The position numbers were made by a program, and so were the translations under genes. From Bacteroidota bacterium (GTDB taxonomy: Bacteria > Bacteroidota > Bacteroidia > B-17B0 > Aurantibacillaceae), in contig JAFDYI010000031.1 of the NCBI GenBank assembly GCA_018267475.1, positions 1 to 50,260 on the forward strand: a DNA stretch of 50,260 bases. The letters run 5' to 3'. Position 1 is the first letter of the stretch, and every line of letters begins with the position of its first letter. Under the pieces are notes generated by a model. The model did no database searches. It was not told where the DNA came from and was given only the letters and a program-made list of their open reading frames with translations. Shown in pieces: positions 28,600 to 41,983 of this stretch.

Positions 28600-29571
28600 T
28601 TAATTGGCCGCCGTTGGCTCTACTGTTACGCCCATGCTGCTAAATTTTTCTATCCTGTCGGCTATGCGTTTTTCGGCGGTTTGTTTAGATAATTGTTTCA
28701 TGCCGGCAGCAATGGCTTCTTTTACATTTTTATATACCTCGGCCGGGTTGTTGTGCGCTCCGCCTAAGGGTTCGGCTATGATACCGTCTATTAAATGGTT
28801 GCCCATCATATCAGTAGCCGTTAGTTTCAGTGCTTCGGCTGCTTTTTCTTTAAAATTCCAGGTGCGCCACAAAATGGTAGAGCAGTTTTCGGGAGAGATA
28901 ACCGAGTACCAAGCGTTTTCAAGCATCAGCACTTTATCGCCTATGCCTATGCCTAAGGCCCCCCCCGATGCTCCTTCACCAATAATGATGCAAAGTACGG
29001 GCACATTTAGTTGCATCATTTCCAATAAATTACGAGCTATGGCTTCGCCCTGCCCACGCTCTTCGGCTTCTAAACCGGGGTAAGCGCCCGGAGTATCAAT
29101 AAAGGTTATGATGGGTTTGTTAAATTTTTCTGCCAGTTTCATTAAACGGAGTGCTTTTCTATAGCCTTCGGGATTGGGCATGCCAAAATTTCGGTACTGG
29201 CGTTCTTTGGTATTACGGCCTTTTTGTTGCCCTATAAGCATGTAGGTAGTGCCATCTATATCGCCAAAGCCGCCTATCATGGCTTTATCGTCTTTTACGG
29301 TACGGTCGCCATGCAGTTCTATAAAATTACCGTTGGTAAGGGCGTTGATATAATCTAAAGCGTAAGGGCGGTTGGGGTGGCGCGATAGTTGCACGCGTTG
29401 CCAAGGACTAAGGTGAGTATAAAGTTCTTTTTTTGTTTCGGTTATTTTATCCTCCATTTGTTTGATAGAGGGGGAAACATCTACTTTACTTTTGGCGGCA
29501 ATGTCTTTGAGCTTTTGAAGTTCTTTTTCAAGTTCTTCTATAGGCTTTTCAAAATCAAGATAATTACTCAT
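28600..29571 (-). CDS. accA: Acetyl-CoA carboxylase carboxyltransferase subunit alpha
   Basis: This 323-residue protein moves the carboxyl group from carboxybiotin to acetyl-CoA, the first committed step of fatty acid synthesis, together with AccD (not in this window). It shows '[18 protein letters not shown]', '[12 protein letters not shown]' and '[12 protein letters not shown]' of the crotonase-like fold, with an N-terminal helical region. The ATG at 29571 follows an exact -7 box by 20 bases. The efp gene lies 43 bases downstream, so accA-efp-acyP may be one unit. Confidence 0.96.
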
Positions 29572-29591
29572 TCCGGTAAAAAATTAGGGGG

Positions 29592-29599
29592 CAAATATA
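29592..29599 (-). promoter_or_regulatory. -7 box (TATATTTG) for accA
   Basis: Exact TAnnTTTG on the minus strand, 20 bases ahead of the ATG. The gap to the mqnE stop is otherwise A/T-rich. Confidence 0.6.
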
Positions 29600-29653
29600 T
29601 TATTTTAAAATGGATTGTAAAATTTGCTTTTTTAACTAAAGAAAGAAGGCTTT

Positions 29654-30808
29654 TTATTCTGTTTCTACCGGCAATTCGCTAAAATCGTGTACGGTATGGT
29701 ATAGGGTATCGCGCTCTATAGGGCGTAAGCCGGCTTGTTTTATCAGTTCTACCAATTGTTGCGTGCTAAGCGCCGGATTTTTTTCTTCGGCACCCGCCAT
29801 AGAGTATATTTTGGTGGTGTCGTCAATGGTTCCGTCCAAATCGTCAGCGCCGAAGTGAAGGGCTAATTGTGCCGTGCTTCGTCCTATCATGGCCCAGTAG
29901 GCCTTTATATGGTCAAAATTATCTAAATAAATACGACTGATGGCGTAGTTGCGCAGGTCTTCTATAATGCTTGCCTCGGGCACCTGGCTCATTTGGTTGT
30001 CTTTGTTTCTAAATTTTAATGGGATAAAGGCATTAAAACCTCCTGTTTTATCTTGCAGTTGGCGCAGCTGCTCTAAGTGGTCTATGCGGTGATGAAATTT
30101 TTCTATATGTCCGTACAACATGGTAGCGTTGCTTTTGCCGCCCAGTTTATGCCACTCTTCATGAATAGACAGCCATTCTTGAGCGCTGCACTTGCCGCCC
30201 GCTATTTGGTCGCGTATTTCGGGGGCAAAAATTTCGGCTCCGCCGCCCGGCATAGAGCCTAAGCCGGCTTCTTTCATGGCTTTCATTCCATCGGCATAGC
30301 TTATTTTTGCTTTTTTAAAGATGTAGTGATACTCAACCGGAGTAAGCGCTTTTATATGTAACTGTGGGCGGTGTTGTTTTATTTTTTGAAACAGTTCGGT
30401 GTAAAAATTAAAATCTTGTTTTGGAATAACCCCGCCTGTGATGTGCACCTCGGTTACGGGTTTATCGTCCCACTTTTTTATAATATCTAAAATTTGAGTC
30501 ACCGAAAGTTCCCAACCTTCTTCTTTTTGTTTTATCAGGCGCGAGTACGAGCAGAACGAGCAGGTGTAAACACATATATTAGTGGGCTCCACATGAAAAT
30601 TTCGGTTAAAAAACACCTTATCGCCCGTTTTTTTATGTTTTACAACATGAGCCAAGGCTCCTACAAAACCCAAATCGGCTTTTTCAAAAAGCAATACCCC
30701 CTCTTCAAAAGAAATGCGTTTGTTGCTTAGCACCTTATCCGCTATTTTTTTTAGTTCGTGGCTGATGTGCGTGCTGTTTAGGTAGGTTTGAAGGCCTTCG
30801 GGTTTCAT
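29654..30808 (-). CDS. mqnE: Aminofutalosine synthase (radical SAM)
   Basis: This 384-residue radical SAM enzyme makes 6-amino-6-deoxyfutalosine in the futalosine route to menaquinone. The iron-sulfur cluster cysteines are C79-x3-C83-x2-C86 in 'NICVYTCSFCSYSR'. MqnE-type signatures, and not those of the related MqnC, include 'GLGSMPGGGAEIFAPEIRDQ', 'SNATMLYGHIE' and 'GFNAFIPLKFRN'. The stop of nadC and the ATG are only nine bases apart, so nadC-mqnE form an operon. The other mqn genes are not in the window. Confidence 0.93.
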   Translation of the reverse strand: MKPEGLQTYLNSTHISHELKKIADKVLSNKRISFEEGVLLFEKADLGFVGALAHVVKHKKTGDKVFFNRNFHVEPTNICVYTCSFCSYSRLIKQKEEGWELSVTQILDIIKKWDDKPVTEVHITGGVIPKQDFNFYTELFQKIKQHRPQLHIKALTPVEYHYIFKKAKISYADGMKAMKEAGLGSMPGGGAEIFAPEIRDQIAGGKCSAQEWLSIHEEWHKLGGKSNATMLYGHIEKFHHRIDHLEQLRQLQDKTGGFNAFIPLKFRNKDNQMSQVPEASIIEDLRNYAISRIYLDNFDHIKAYWAMIGRSTAQLALHFGADDLDGTIDDTTKIYSMAGAEEKNPALSTQQLVELIKQAGLRPIERDTLYHTVHDFSELPVETE

Positions 30809-30817
30809 TTGGCAAAG

Positions 30818-31684
30818 TTACGAAATAGCCTTTAAACTTAAATCTAAACTTTTTATTTGATGTGTTAGTGCCCCTACCGATATAAAATCAACGCCGGCCA
30901 AGGCATATTGACGTATGTTTTTTTGCGTGATGCCTCCGCTGGCTTCTGTTTGATAGGCTCCGTTGATGAGAGTTACCGCCTTTTTTACCTCAGCAACCGA
31001 AAAATTATCCAACAAAACTCGGTTTACCTTGCCATGGGTTATTATTTTTTTTACATCAGATAGGTTGCGGCATTCTACCTCCACAGCTAATTTTAATTTA
31101 TTTTTTTTAAGATAAGCCTGCGCCGCATCAACGGCCTGCGTGATGCCTCCTGCAAAATCAATATGGTTGTCTTTTATTAAAATCATATCGTATAGGGCGT
31201 AGCGGTGGTTGGCTCCCCCGCCTATTACAACCGCCCATTTTTCAAAAAAACGAAACAAAGGAGTTGTTTTTCGGGTGTCGATTACCTGTGTATGTGTGGA
31301 TTTGCACAAACTTTGCAGGTGGTGTGTTTGGGTGGCAATGCCGCTCATGCGCTGCATCACATTAAGTAAAAGGCGCTCGGCTATCAATAATTTGTAAGTA
31401 GGGCCCGATACTATAAAGGCCACATCGCCTTTTTTTACCGGAGTACCGTCTTTTATTTTTACGGTTATTTTTATATTTTTATCTATTTCTTTTAAAATAA
31501 AACAAGCGGCTTCTACGCCGGCCAAAACGCCTTCTTGTTTCACCAAAAGTTGCATACGGCCTATTTGATTTTTTTTTAGAGTAGATAGGGTGGTATGGTC
31601 GCCGGGGCCTACATCTTCGGCAAGGGCTTGTTTTATAAAAGTTTTGAAATTAAAGTTTTTTTGGTGTTTTGTGATATAACTCAT
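30818..31684 (-). CDS. nadC: Nicotinate-nucleotide pyrophosphorylase (carboxylating)
   Basis: This 288-residue protein makes nicotinate mononucleotide from quinolinate and PRPP in de novo NAD synthesis. Motifs are 'EDVGPGDHTT', 'VIDTRKTTP', 'GGGANHRYALYDMILIKDNH', 'AVEVECRN' and 'EASGGI' near the C-terminus. The ATG at 31684 is preceded by a divergent promoter region shared with the rlmH 5' remnant. Because a 3.2-kb gene has been inserted behind that region, nadC now sits 116 bases downstream of the stop codon of a large surface-protein gene on the same strand. Confidence 0.95.
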   Translation of the reverse strand: MSYITKHQKNFNFKTFIKQALAEDVGPGDHTTLSTLKKNQIGRMQLLVKQEGVLAGVEAACFILKEIDKNIKITVKIKDGTPVKKGDVAFIVSGPTYKLLIAERLLLNVMQRMSGIATQTHHLQSLCKSTHTQVIDTRKTTPLFRFFEKWAVVIGGGANHRYALYDMILIKDNHIDFAGGITQAVDAAQAYLKKNKLKLAVEVECRNLSDVKKIITHGKVNRVLLDNFSVAEVKKAVTLINGAYQTEASGGITQKNIRQYALAGVDFISVGALTHQIKSLDLSLKAIS

Positions 31685-31703: not shown

Positions 31704-31711
31704 CAAAATTA
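31704..31711 (-). promoter_or_regulatory. -7 box (TAATTTTG) for nadC
   Basis: Exact TAnnTTTG on the minus strand, 19 bases ahead of the nadC ATG. It coincides with the left end of the 96-bp repeat. The second copy (34995-35002) has no gene to drive on that strand within the repeat, but points toward the surface-protein gene. Confidence 0.5.
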
Positions 31712-31799
31712 AGAATAGTTTTGTGGAATGAAAATAGTGCTGCTGCAAATAGATAAAACCGACCAAGCCTATATAGAACAAGGGGTGCAGGAGTTTAGT
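31704..31799. repeat. 96-bp direct repeat, copy 1 (nadC/rlmH promoter + rlmH 5' end)
   Basis: This segment matches 34995-35090 at 95 of 96 bases; the only difference is C at 31743 versus T at 35034. It contains the divergent promoter region and the first 24 codons of rlmH. With copy 2 it brackets a 3195-bp insert (31800-34994) that holds one complete gene with its promoter. Confidence 0.95.
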
Positions 31800-31844
31800 G
31801 TTATTTCGTTATATTTAATTTTGATACAAACACTTTATCCTTAA
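31728..31844 (+). pseudogene. rlmH 5' remnant
   Basis: From ATG 31728 the first 24 codons equal those of intact rlmH at 35019 (one silent CTG/TTG change). Then 14 codons of antisense surface-protein sequence follow before TAA. The product would be a 38-residue stub lacking the methyltransferase knot, so it is dead as an enzyme. It still keeps the TAGTTTTG -7 box at 31716-31723, which may fire into the 3' end of the neighbouring gene. Confidence 0.85.
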
Positions 31845-34800
31845 CAACAATACGCGCTATGTAAAATCCTGATGCTAAAGACGCAACAGAAAAAGGTACT
31901 ACATTTTCACCCTTAGTTAAGCATAAATGAACCGATTGTATTAACTGCCCACCTATACTGTATAAGTTAAGTTGTGTATTTATACTTTCTTCTACACTAA
32001 TTTTAACAATACAGTTGTCTGATGCTGGATTGGGGTATAGCAGCATTGCCTCGCCGCCATTACTTGATGAATTTATTTGATTAATACTGGCACTATTATT
32101 TATAGTATTAATGGTTTGATTAGTTAATACTGGGGGATTGTAATCGAAAAAAATTGCTGCCCTATTCTTAAATTGAGTTCCTTGTGGTAATCCTTTTTTT
32201 GCATGAATACTATATGCTATGGTGCCTATGCTCCCTAAAGCAGAATTGTTTTGATACGGCAAATTAATATTATTAAATGTAAAAGAAACAAGTCCATTAT
32301 TTGTCATTGAAGCAATATAGTTATGATTAGAATATCCTGGTCTTAATGATTCCCAATTAAAATTAGCATCTAAAGTGTCCATAACAATAATTTTATTAGC
32401 GTTTGCCGTTCCTGTATTTTGGAAATGTATTACATAATCAAAAACGGTATCGTTAGAATTGACATAACCTAGCGGCCCTATTCCTTTCGGGTAAACTTCT
32501 TTAAAATTAGGATCAAATGATTCAACTACTTCGCCACTGTAAGATCCTATATTATTCCAAGGAGTATAATCATTAAGCCAATTGCTTACGGGCGAAGTAT
32601 ATGAAGTCGTATCCACAAAATCAACATTAGTACTAATAGGGATATTAGTAGGCACATTATAATTTATTAAAGCAGCAGTTGAAGCTCCCGGTGTTAAAGA
32701 AATGGTACTTGTATTATTATACCAATGGAGGCTTAGCAAAGGGTTTACTAATGACAAATTTATTCCAGAAGCGCCTAAATAAAGTAATTGCCCATCGTTG
32801 GCGTATCTTAATTGAATATTGTTTTCTGTTACCGTTCCATCATTTTGAATAATTACTTGTTGTGCATAACTACCACCAGGTGTAAGGTAATTAATGCTTG
32901 AATTGATAATATGTACATCGTGCAAAGGGTTTATATTATTAGCAAAATTAACTGTGTACGTGCAACCTGATGATGCTGTAATGTTTAACACATTGTTGTT
33001 ACTTTGGCAAGCACTCAATGGGTACAGATGTTGTATTACTTCTTGTATGTTATAGCTACCGGTGGGTAAAATAAAACTGTAAATGCCCGACGTGTCTGTA
33101 AACATATAACTACTTACGGGATAAGCAGTTACTACATTGTTATTTTTTACAAGAATGTGTTGTAAGGGAGGCTCTCCCGCATCTTGTATGCAATTACCAT
33201 TCGCGTCATAATAAACGGTTCCCGTAACGGTGCAATAACAACTGTTGTTTGCGGTATTATAGCCAAGAGAAAATAGACTTGTAGCGGTACAACCTAAAGC
33301 GTCAGTAACCGTTACCGAATACCTGCCCGTTGCTACCCCTGAAATGGTTGCTGCACTTGATGAAAGAGGATACCAATTATAACTATAAGGTGGGGTTCCC
33401 CCTGTTGGTATTGCTGTTACAGAACCATCACTTGTATAAATACAACTGGCAGGGGTACTGGTAAATCCCGTATTTATTGAAGATACTGCTTCAAGAGTTA
33501 CCGACTTGTTTTTTTGGCAACCTAAAGCATCAGTAATGACACATGAATAAGTACCGGCTCCAAGGCCTCCTATAGAAGATGTGGTGGCCCCTGTATTCCA
33601 ATGATAGGCAATAGGCCCATAACTTGAAGATGCATTAACAGAGGCAACACCGTTGTTATTAGGACACAAGGGGTTTACTTCACTGGTATAAACGCTTAAA
33701 TTGGATATGGGAGGCACATAAGCAATACCTGTTTGTTTGCATTGATTAGCGTCTGTAACTTCAAAAGAATAATTGCCTGAAGGAACGCCTGTAAGGATAA
33801 GCCCTGTTTGAATCGGAGAAGTTGCCCATGTAACAGAATAAGGGGCCAGCCCTCCGCTTACAGTTAAAGTAGCTGAACCCGTAGGCGAAGAACAAGAGCT
33901 TTGTGTAGCTGTATATGTAACATTTATAGGCGTACTTGAAGCAATATTAAAATTAGTATCACCAATGCAACCATTAACATCACTTACCTGTACACTATAG
34001 TATCCGGGAATTAATCCTGATGCCGATTGAGTAGTTTGCCCGTTGCTATACACATAACTATATGGGGGGGTACCTCCGCTGCCAAATGAAATAGCACTTC
34101 CATTACTTAGGGTACAAGTAGCTGCCGTTGTAGCAACGTGTGGATATACATTCAAGCTTTGAGGTATGTAAGCATATGCACTTCCCATACAGCCTTGTGC
34201 ATCCGTAACAACGATATCATAATACCCTGTTGTGAGGTTAGAAATTTGCGGCGTAACTTGGCTATTACTCCATAGGTAGGTATAAGGGGCTACGCCATTA
34301 GAAATGGCCGTTACGCTTGCTGTTCCATTTGTGCAGTTAGCAGAAGTAGTTGTAACAGATACGCTTATATTAGATATCTGAACTACTGAAATAGTATCTA
34401 TATTGGGTGTAGAGCAACCATGTGCATCGGTTATTGATAAAAAATAATTGCCTAAAGGCAGAATTGCGTTAGGTCCAGTAGCAACAGAGCTGCCTACAGA
34501 ATTAGTCCAAACAATTGTATATGGCGCATAGCCCCCTGATACCGATGCAACATAAGTTCCTGTTGTAGCTGGACACAATGGGGTACTGTACGTTAAAGTA
34601 TTTGAAAAAGGAAAATTTGTACTCCCAGAGCCTAATATGTTAAGATTATTAGACCCCGAGGCATAACATGAGTAAGAAGAATAACCAGGTAAATTACGCA
34701 AGGTATCTGTTAAATTATTTGTAGTATGGCTTGCGTTTCCGCCACTATATGACCAATAATAGGTGATGGGCGGCGTTAAACCCGTAACGCTGGCTACAAC

Positions 34801-34926
34801 AATACCATCATTATGGCAAGGCGTTTGAGTCATAGTAAAAGAAAGTGTTTGAGCTTTAATACAAGAAATATGTAAGAGAAACAATGCCCAAAAACACCAC
34901 TGGTTTACTTTACGAAATATTTTCAT
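31801..34926 (-). CDS. SprB-repeat surface protein with DUF7619 and T9SS type A sorting domain
   Basis: This 1041-residue protein is secreted (signal peptide about 1-25). Some seven SprB-type repeats of about 70 residues follow; each ends like 'GYYDIVVTDAQGC' or 'GRYSVTVTDALGC'. An SdrD/Cna B-like domain comes near residue 570 ('VTGTVYYDANGNCIQDAGEP'). A DUF7619-like domain ('SFDPNFKEVYPKG', 'IHFQNTGTANANKI', 'FFDYNPPVLTN') precedes the sorting domain 'LLYPNPASDNCIVKI'. SprB-family proteins serve in gliding or adhesion. Gene and promoter fill exactly the insert between two 96-bp repeats of the rlmH 5' end, so it arrived by insertion. No terminator follows its stop. Confidence 0.88.
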   Translation of the reverse strand: MKIFRKVNQWCFWALFLLHISCIKAQTLSFTMTQTPCHNDGIVVASVTGLTPPITYYWSYSGGNASHTTNNLTDTLRNLPGYSSYSCYASGSNNLNILGSGSTNFPFSNTLTYSTPLCPATTGTYVASVSGGYAPYTIVWTNSVGSSVATGPNAILPLGNYFLSITDAHGCSTPNIDTISVVQISNISVSVTTTSANCTNGTASVTAISNGVAPYTYLWSNSQVTPQISNLTTGYYDIVVTDAQGCMGSAYAYIPQSLNVYPHVATTAATCTLSNGSAISFGSGGTPPYSYVYSNGQTTQSASGLIPGYYSVQVSDVNGCIGDTNFNIASSTPINVTYTATQSSCSSPTGSATLTVSGGLAPYSVTWATSPIQTGLILTGVPSGNYSFEVTDANQCKQTGIAYVPPISNLSVYTSEVNPLCPNNNGVASVNASSSYGPIAYHWNTGATTSSIGGLGAGTYSCVITDALGCQKNKSVTLEAVSSINTGFTSTPASCIYTSDGSVTAIPTGGTPPYSYNWYPLSSSAATISGVATGRYSVTVTDALGCTATSLFSLGYNTANNSCYCTVTGTVYYDANGNCIQDAGEPPLQHILVKNNNVVTAYPVSSYMFTDTSGIYSFILPTGSYNIQEVIQHLYPLSACQSNNNVLNITASSGCTYTVNFANNINPLHDVHIINSSINYLTPGGSYAQQVIIQNDGTVTENNIQLRYANDGQLLYLGASGINLSLVNPLLSLHWYNNTSTISLTPGASTAALINYNVPTNIPISTNVDFVDTTSYTSPVSNWLNDYTPWNNIGSYSGEVVESFDPNFKEVYPKGIGPLGYVNSNDTVFDYVIHFQNTGTANANKIIVMDTLDANFNWESLRPGYSNHNYIASMTNNGLVSFTFNNINLPYQNNSALGSIGTIAYSIHAKKGLPQGTQFKNRAAIFFDYNPPVLTNQTINTINNSASINQINSSSNGGEAMLLYPNPASDNCIVKISVEESINTQLNLYSIGGQLIQSVHLCLTKGENVVPFSVASLASGFYIARIVVKDKVFVSKLNITK

Positions 34927-34951
34927 TGGTTTTTGTAATTAATTTTATATA

Positions 34952-34980
34952 CAAATATAGAACTTTTTTTAAAATTGCAA
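34952..34980 (-). promoter_or_regulatory. -33/-7 promoter of the SprB-repeat gene
   Basis: On the minus strand, TTG (34980-34978), an 18-base spacer and TATATTTG (34959-34952) form a good Bacteroidota promoter 25 bases ahead of the ATG at 34926. It lies wholly inside the insert, 14 bases from its right end. Confidence 0.65.
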
Positions 34981-34994
34981 TGTATAATTATAAA

Positions 34995-35090
34995 CAAAAT
35001 TAAGAATAGTTTTGTGGAATGAAAATAGTGCTGTTGCAAATAGATAAAACCGACCAAGCCTATATAGAACAAGGGGTGCAGGAGTTTAGT
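34995..35090. repeat. 96-bp direct repeat, copy 2 (intact rlmH 5' end)
   Basis: Second copy of the repeat at 31704-31799, with one mismatch. It continues without a break into functional rlmH, so this copy is joined to the original gene body. The other copy is joined to the original nadC side. Confidence 0.95.
35007..35014 (+). promoter_or_regulatory. -7 box (TAGTTTTG) of rlmH
   Basis: Exact TAnnTTTG followed by only four bases (TGGA) before ATG, implying a leaderless or nearly leaderless mRNA. The same box is present in the remnant copy at 31716-31723. Confidence 0.5.
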
Positions 35091-35489
35091 AAGCGCCTAA
35101 GTCGATATATTTCTTTTGAAACCGTTACCATTTCTATTTCTAAAAGCACGCGCAGTAGAAGCATTGCCGAACAAAAACAAGAAGAAGAAAAGCAGCTTCT
35201 TACTCGTTTAGAAAAAAGCGATTGCGTGTACTTATTAGACGAAATCGGAAAAGAATATACTTCTATACAATTAGCGCAGCAAATACAAAGCGTGCTGAAT
35301 GCCGGTAAAAAAAACATCTATTTTGTGATAGGCGGCCCCTATGGTTTTACCGATGCGTTGCGTAGTAAATACCCGCTTATCAGTCTTTCTAAACTCACCT
35401 TTTCGCACCAGATGATTCGTTTGTTTTTTTGCGAACAACTTTATAGGGCTTTTACTATTATTAAGGGCGAAAAATACCATCATTCGTAG
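35019..35489 (+). CDS. rlmH: 23S rRNA (pseudouridine-1915-N3) methyltransferase
   Basis: This 156-residue SPOUT-class enzyme (YbeA/RlmH) methylates pseudouridine 1915 in helix 69 of 23S rRNA using S-adenosylmethionine. The knot signatures are 'LLDEIGKEYTS' , 'FVIGGPYGF' and 'LSLSKLTFSHQMIRLFFCEQLYRAF', close to the family consensus, and the length is standard. It begins inside the second 96-bp repeat. The gene was evidently kept whole when a large gene was inserted next to it. Confidence 0.96.
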   Translation: MKIVLLQIDKTDQAYIEQGVQEFSKRLSRYISFETVTISISKSTRSRSIAEQKQEEEKQLLTRLEKSDCVYLLDEIGKEYTSIQLAQQIQSVLNAGKKNIYFVIGGPYGFTDALRSKYPLISLSKLTFSHQMIRLFFCEQLYRAFTIIKGEKYHHS

Positions 35490-41185: not shown

Positions 41186-41983
41186 ATGAAAAAGATTCTC
41201 ATTCAAGGAATAGTAACAGTTTTCCTTTTTTTTGGAACATGGTTTATATCAGCACAAATTGATTGGATAAAAATTTTTAAAATTCAACAAATGACTGACA
41301 AAACAGAGCAAAAATTAGGAGAACTCTTTTGGGAAGTTTTAAAAAAAAATGAAAAGGAGAACAAAAATACCTGCGCAGTAACTTCAATTGATAGTATTGT
41401 AACAAATATATGTAAAGCAAACAAAATAGATAGGATGAAAATAAAAATTCATATACTTACTAAAGATGATGTCAATGCTTTTGCATTACCAAACGGACAT
41501 CTAATTATTTATAGTGGGCTTATATTAAACTCTGATAGTCAAGAAGCATTGACTGGCGTTATTTGCCATGAAATTGCACACATTGAGCTTAATCACGTAA
41601 TGAAAAAACTAGTAAAAGAAATAGGGCTTTCGGTTTTAATATCCATGACAACGAGCAATGGCGGAGGAGAAGTTGTAAAAAAAGCTGCAAAAATACTTTC
41701 TTCATCAGCATTTGACCGAAGTTTAGAAAAAGAAGCAGATATAAAAGCGGTTAATTATCTAATAAAAGCGAGAGTAAATCCAGAACCTTTTGCAGATTTT
41801 TTGTATAAACTTTCTGATAAAGAGTATGAATCAACAAAGTATGTAACGTGGATTAGCACACATCCAAATTCAAAAGAGCGAGCTGAATATATTATTGAAT
41901 ATAGTAAAGGAAAAATTACAGAATACAAATCTATTTTGTCCCTCAAAACATGGAACAGTCTGAAAGAAAAATTGAAAGACTAA
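41186..41983 (+). CDS. M48-family zinc metallopeptidase
   Basis: This 265-residue protein starts at ATG 41186. It has a hydrophobic N-terminus (about residues 4-24) that is either a signal peptide or a membrane anchor, then a M48 peptidase domain. Zinc ligands are His128 and His132 in HEIAH and Glu183 in 'EKEADIKAVNYL'. It is closest to BepA/LoiP/Oma1-like M48B/C enzymes that act on misfolded envelope proteins. Being last in the operon with three small membrane proteins, it may process or control them; this is inferred from order only. Confidence 0.86.
   Translation: MKKILIQGIVTVFLFFGTWFISAQIDWIKIFKIQQMTDKTEQKLGELFWEVLKKNEKENKNTCAVTSIDSIVTNICKANKIDRMKIKIHILTKDDVNAFALPNGHLIIYSGLILNSDSQEALTGVICHEIAHIELNHVMKKLVKEIGLSVLISMTTSNGGGEVVKKAAKILSSSAFDRSLEKEADIKAVNYLIKARVNPEPFADFLYKLSDKEYESTKYVTWISTHPNSKERAEYIIEYSKGKITEYKSILSLKTWNSLKEKLKD

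Follow-up and report, generated by a model that had tools for sequence, protein, structure and literature searches.

A single surface-protein gene inserted between nadC and rlmH of a Bacteroidota bacterium is flanked by a 96-bp duplication of its target

How bacteria gain single genes without a visible mobile element is an open question, and the nadC–rlmH locus of this Bacteroidota bacterium poses it in compact form. In the window (the whole 50,260-nt stretch of DNA that was analysed), the promoter region between nadC and rlmH is present twice, as direct repeats with one surface-protein gene between them, and we asked how such an arrangement could have arisen and how the two neighbouring genes could have survived it. 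The parts of the locus are as follows (window positions).

30818–31684, minus strand: nadC, the left neighbour, intact (TIGR00078, 298 bits).
31704–31799, plus strand: left copy of the 96-bp target duplication, an orphan fragment with the nadC/rlmH promoter core and the first 24 rlmH codons, contiguous with native DNA upstream of nadC.
31800–34994, no strand assigned: inserted, probably foreign segment of 3195 bp, absent between nadC and rlmH in 5/5 informative congeners and an outlier in third-position GC.
31801–34926, minus strand: inserted gene, encoding a predicted cell-surface protein of 1041 aa with SprB repeats, an SdrD_B-like stretch, DUF7619, and a T9SS C-terminal sorting domain.
34995–35090, plus strand: right copy of the target duplication (96 bp), which matches the left copy at 95/96 bases and is continuous with functional rlmH.
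35019–35489, plus strand: rlmH, the right neighbour, intact by ORF and domain profile matches.

An initial annotation had described the 96-bp duplication with one difference, and sequence comparison across the window returned exactly those coordinates. The sole mismatch (31743 C, 35034 T) is synonymous and falls in rlmH Leu-6 (CTG/TTG); four of five congeners have C at this base, as the left copy does, and thus it is probably the functional, right copy that changed after the duplication. The rlmH reading ends after 24 codons in the left copy, while in the right copy it extends through a full 156-aa RlmH (PF02590, 5.6e-49), again as first described, and the outer side of each copy is contiguous with native DNA. 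Also borne out was the description of the 3195 bp as one SprB-repeat surface-protein gene plus its promoter: we found a single complete ORF, with one base between its stop codon and the left repeat, and an upstream region with a promoter-like box. The duplication is not a chance occurrence, because no other direct repeat in the 50-kb window reaches 35 bp with 85% identity and because other long direct pairs in the 1.56 Mb scanned of this 2.76-Mb genome (G000) are mostly tandem paralogues or within-gene repeats. No third copy of the 96-mer was found in the genome. A domain profile search returned no transposase or integrase domain in the insert and no inverted repeat was found at its ends, in agreement with the initial annotation.

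The limits of the repeat bear on the survival of the neighbours. The −7 consensus of Bacteroidota promoters is TAnnTTTG, and the putative boxes of nadC and rlmH both fit it. The three candidate boxes of the locus, each identified by pattern only, are placed as follows.

31704–31711, minus strand: putative nadC −7 box TAATTTTG, retained next to nadC through the left copy; the last base of the box is also the first base of the repeat.
34927–34994, minus strand: upstream region brought by the insert, comprising the 68 bp 5′ of the ATG, with TATATTTG, a TAnnTTTG-type −7 box, at 34952–34959.
35007–35014, plus strand: putative rlmH −7 box TAGTTTTG, kept beside rlmH by the right copy.

Because the repeat holds the putative −7 boxes of both genes, nadC and rlmH would each retain a putative promoter core of their own, one repeat copy apiece, and both would survive the insertion. 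A plain insertion at this site, without duplication, would sever one neighbour from its promoter core. The earlier statement that the arrangement keeps an essential neighbour intact thus stands for the integrity of both neighbours but not for essentiality, which is unsupported: rlmH is dispensable in Escherichia coli. Read-through from the inserted gene into nadC is likely, because the stop codon adjoins the left copy and no terminator or structured RNA was found in that copy, ahead of nadC.

A comparison of nadC–rlmH with close relatives had been proposed at the outset, and it returned an empty site in all informative cases. Five congeners have the two genes on a single contig, and in all five nadC and rlmH are divergently oriented with 36–213 bp between them; among relatives within the family they are divergent within 36–707 bp at 25 of the 29 rlmH loci checked. 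Because all five informative congeners have this arrangement, the comparison, which is between species with one genome per species and covers the rlmH locus only, indicates that the insertion is the derived state. In many other genera, nadC and rlmH are separated by ∼410–430 bp, and this longer spacer apparently reflects a small gene that is missing in the present genus. We also considered rlmH as a recurrent attachment site and rejected the idea, as the partial rlmH sequences in two genomes (G046 and G064) come from overlapping contig ends or from contigs of strain variants; across the 78 rlmH-bearing genomes of the family, no genuine partial copy other than the present one was detected.

The inserted gene has a signal-peptide-like start, SprB repeats (88 bits), DUF7619 (130 bits), and a type A T9SS sorting tail, together with an SdrD_B-like stretch that falls narrowly short of the Pfam threshold, and its product is predicted to be secreted and anchored at the surface. 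Full-length relatives, at 41–56% identity, are scattered across Bacteroidota and lie mostly in Chitinophagales. The nearest known relative, 56% identical, is in a congener (G003), on a different contig from rlmH, and in a tree the two genes pair with full support and long branches. A search of the present genome for a syntenic source locus did not find the neighbourhood of the G003 gene, and there is no close paralogue in the genome (the closest is ∼40% identical and partial). Among plasmid, phage, and viral-contig sequences, we found only partial SprB-like matches and no plasmid or phage record with most of the gene. At fourfold-degenerate sites, the inserted gene has a GC content (GC4) of 0.298. 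The 175 long genes of the genome that were compared average 0.472 (SD 0.071), which places the gene at the 1.1 percentile and below every listed gene of more than 700 aa, with AT-rich third positions also seen in a few other genes of this genome; GC4 of the G003 relative is 0.276. Because its third positions are AT-rich and its nearest relative is only 56% identical and lies elsewhere in a congener, we consider the inserted gene to be probably foreign. Separately, a 265-aa ORF at 41186–41980 of the window (plus strand) has the lowest fourfold GC (0.16) among the 175 sampled genes and is without long flanking repeats; it is possibly another recent foreign gene.

The initial annotation had raised the question of whether other T9SS genes lie between direct repeats of neighbouring gene ends. 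We found that the form of the scar recurs, with two further cases in the 1.56 Mb of this genome, but that the cargo is unrelated to T9SS. On contig C14, the repeat is 62 bp long (60/62) and lies at a T9SS gene end, and the 1321 bp between its two copies hold an Abi_2/PD-T4-5-like defence gene and a DUF6804 gene. On contig C5, a 73-bp repeat (71/73), made up of the final 24 codons of an M23-LysM gene and its stop codon, flanks a 1969-bp segment. This segment carries ArsR, DUF1697, and AHSA1 genes, and their GC3 is 0.24–0.30 compared with 0.51 in the neighbouring host gene; the neighbourhood of this insert is not conserved in congeners. A third case lies in a congener (G001, contig C44), where a 78-bp repeat (88.5%) includes the 5′ end of an acetyltransferase-like gene and the 2723 bp between its copies carry an MBOAT-like acyltransferase gene and a partner gene, names that were read from the sequence and not from a profile search. 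As a control, 400 kb from a different genus of the family were scanned and contained no such scar. At all four loci, one copy of the repeat lies in an intact gene end, the other is an orphan, and the cargo contains no recombinase. The four repeats are mutually unrelated, and their lengths (62–96 bp) are close together, in a sample of four that is too small to call a fixed size. These scars in the genome and a relative suggest a recurrent way of gaining genes here. They lend no support to a cassette specific for T9SS surface genes, as the cargo at the other scars is unrelated and no relative of the inserted gene was found beside rlmH or with flanking repeats of this kind. One candidate for the latter, a 52–67-bp similarity (∼75%) upstream of two adjacent surface genes at the G003 orthologue, was rejected as shared promoter DNA.

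Several other repeats were set aside. Long direct pairs on C33 (755 bp), C36 (359 bp), C5 (1074 bp), and C34 (within genes) are paralogues or internal repeats, and a 39-bp pair in G009 looks like two terminator hairpins. The pairs at 20–24 kb of C5 and 32–34 kb of C37 are repeated pieces of Rhs-like genes (C5 20272–23791 and C37 32799–34440); their core fragments range from 38 bp (100%) to 208 bp (95%), and the arrangement resembles tip displacement with orphan fragments remaining. At C33 39346–43240, two adjacent T9SS genes have a common 755-bp 3′ end that is 96% identical, which suggests a recent duplication or gene conversion. On C14 (L134), an AAA_14/DUF4143 ATPase gene (28740–29918) lies between near-identical palindromes (28680–28732 and 29899–29949, contig coordinates) that centre on TGTCCATTTTCGGAAT...ATTCCGAAAATGGACA.

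The locus shares features with several known kinds of insertion. The SCC elements of staphylococci also insert next to rlmH (orfX) with direct repeats, but they use the 3′ end of the gene and their own recombinases, whereas the present insert lies at the 5′ end and is without a recombinase. More generally, the recombinase and shared attachment site of integrase-type islands are absent: the insert is one gene only, and the repeat differs at each locus. Composite transposons and insertion sequences likewise leave an insertion flanked by a target duplication, but their duplications are much shorter (4–10 bp for those in PMC3031569), and they bring a transposase and terminal inverted repeats; the insert with its 96-bp duplication has none of these. 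The closest likeness is to insertion with long target duplication, described from the comparison of Helicobacter pylori 26695 and J99, where it goes with restriction-modification genes (Nobusato et al. 2000, Gene 259:99–108, as relayed in PMC1643837 and PMC3874152). As those accounts present it, a short segment of one or a few genes is flanked by direct repeats of the target of the order of 100 bp, with a length that varies by site, and the pattern was attributed to movement without a connection to any known mobile element; none is visible here either. At the rlmH locus, the orthologous site is empty in relatives, a target of about 100 bp is duplicated with each copy contiguous with native DNA (96 bp here; 62, 73, and 78 bp elsewhere), and transposase, integrase, and terminal inverted repeats are absent. 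Unlike the H. pylori cases, the host is a member of Bacteroidota and the comparison is between species rather than strains; restriction-modification cargo, which in the relayed literature is an association and not part of the definition, is replaced here by a surface protein, a defence-like gene, a regulator-enzyme set, and an acyltransferase pair. By analogy, and on every defining feature tested from these accounts, the rlmH insertion is an insertion with long target duplication.

We think it probable that a foreign segment with one T9SS gene was captured during the repair of a break or fork and that the 96-bp target was copied to both sides. Anatomy, derived state at the site, atypical composition, and recurrence with other cargo are the observations behind this reading; the strand-level step is one that we infer. 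The incoming DNA may have arrived by natural transformation: ComEC is encoded in the genome, which makes DNA uptake possible, ComEC alone being no proof of competence. The segment, which would have needed no recombinase of its own, would have entered the nadC–rlmH divergent promoter while a broken or stalled replication fork was being repaired. Synthesis or joining would have restarted ∼60–100 nt behind the point of departure, so that the stretch of target that runs from the nadC −7 box as far as rlmH codon 24 would be copied onto both sides. Selection would favour promoter-duplicating insertions at such a compact site, because only these leave both nadC and rlmH expressed. With the repeats in place, RecA should be able to mediate precise loss of the gene or its amplification in tandem. 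A search for Ku (PF02735) had no match in this nearly complete genome (99.15%), which disfavours end joining of the Ku type; one match is present in a congener (G004). The genome has one reverse transcriptase gene, and the putative promoter that the insert brings with it speaks against an origin from an mRNA copy. Homology-facilitated illegitimate recombination (PMC3240628; discussed in PMC5361080), a process of transformable bacteria, likewise joins foreign DNA to the chromosome with no recombinase on the incoming DNA. It is a possible route, but it requires one homologous anchor and one illegitimate junction, and an anchor is not identifiable here, the closest relative of the gene being 56% identical. 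The four repeats of 62–96 bp could also hint at a defined enzyme instead of untidy repair.

The main rival is Campbell-type insertion-duplication, in which a circle carrying the gene and one 96-bp patch integrates by a single homologous crossover, the circles coming by excision from a strain that already has the repeat-gene-repeat unit and spreading the unit within the species. The anatomy is identical to that of a Campbell integration, repeats of 62–96 bp could pair by homology, and ComEC is present, but the first joining of the foreign gene to a piece of rlmH is left unexplained, four loci have four unrelated repeats, and the search of plasmid and phage records offers no carrier. We regard circle integration as an unlikely origin; it may account for spread after the first event. 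Less probable again is an eroded island, integrated by a recombinase at the 5′ end of rlmH with duplication of its attachment site and then reduced to one gene. Integrases can rebuild gene ends with direct repeats, as SCC elements do at the 3′ end of rlmH, yet there is no integrase remnant, a single base separates the left repeat from the stop codon, no further real partial rlmH is found in the family genomes, and a different sequence is duplicated at each of the other three scars. The gene could also have been left between two rlmH 5′ ends if a longer rlmH-gene segment was duplicated in tandem and then trimmed by deletion, a common course of events in bacteria, but the gene must first adjoin rlmH, when the congener orthologue is elsewhere and no congener has the gene there, and two exact deletions would be needed here and again at every other locus, so that we give this route hardly any credence. 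An artefact of metagenome-type assembly is conceivable for a 37-contig draft but highly improbable for copies that are told apart by an internal base, have a length below that of common reads, and lie deep within a 118-kb contig, with an anatomy that recurs independently, and a false join would require the gene to be flanked by rlmH ends elsewhere.

Capture during repair with duplication of the target thus fits best, which retains the derived single-gene gain, the over-long duplication, and the inferred repair origin of the earlier proposal of an unusual gain by a cassette-type or repair-based mechanism, and drops the dedicated surface-gene cassette. The kind of insertion is already known from H. 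pylori; the phylum, the general cargo, and the recurrence are new here. It is a tentative and rather doubtful extension that the genus has an unrecognised insertion process with 60–100-bp target duplication, moving any segments of one to three genes without an element-borne recombinase, and that the H. pylori pattern would be one case of a general route by which bacteria gain genes. The cargo of such insertions need not be restriction-modification genes, and their signature, an orphan gene end on one side and the intact gene on the other, is detectable. The scar explains how an insertion into a tight divergent promoter can be tolerated, and with recent scars in one lineage, whose copies in this genome are 97–99% alike, the process is testable.
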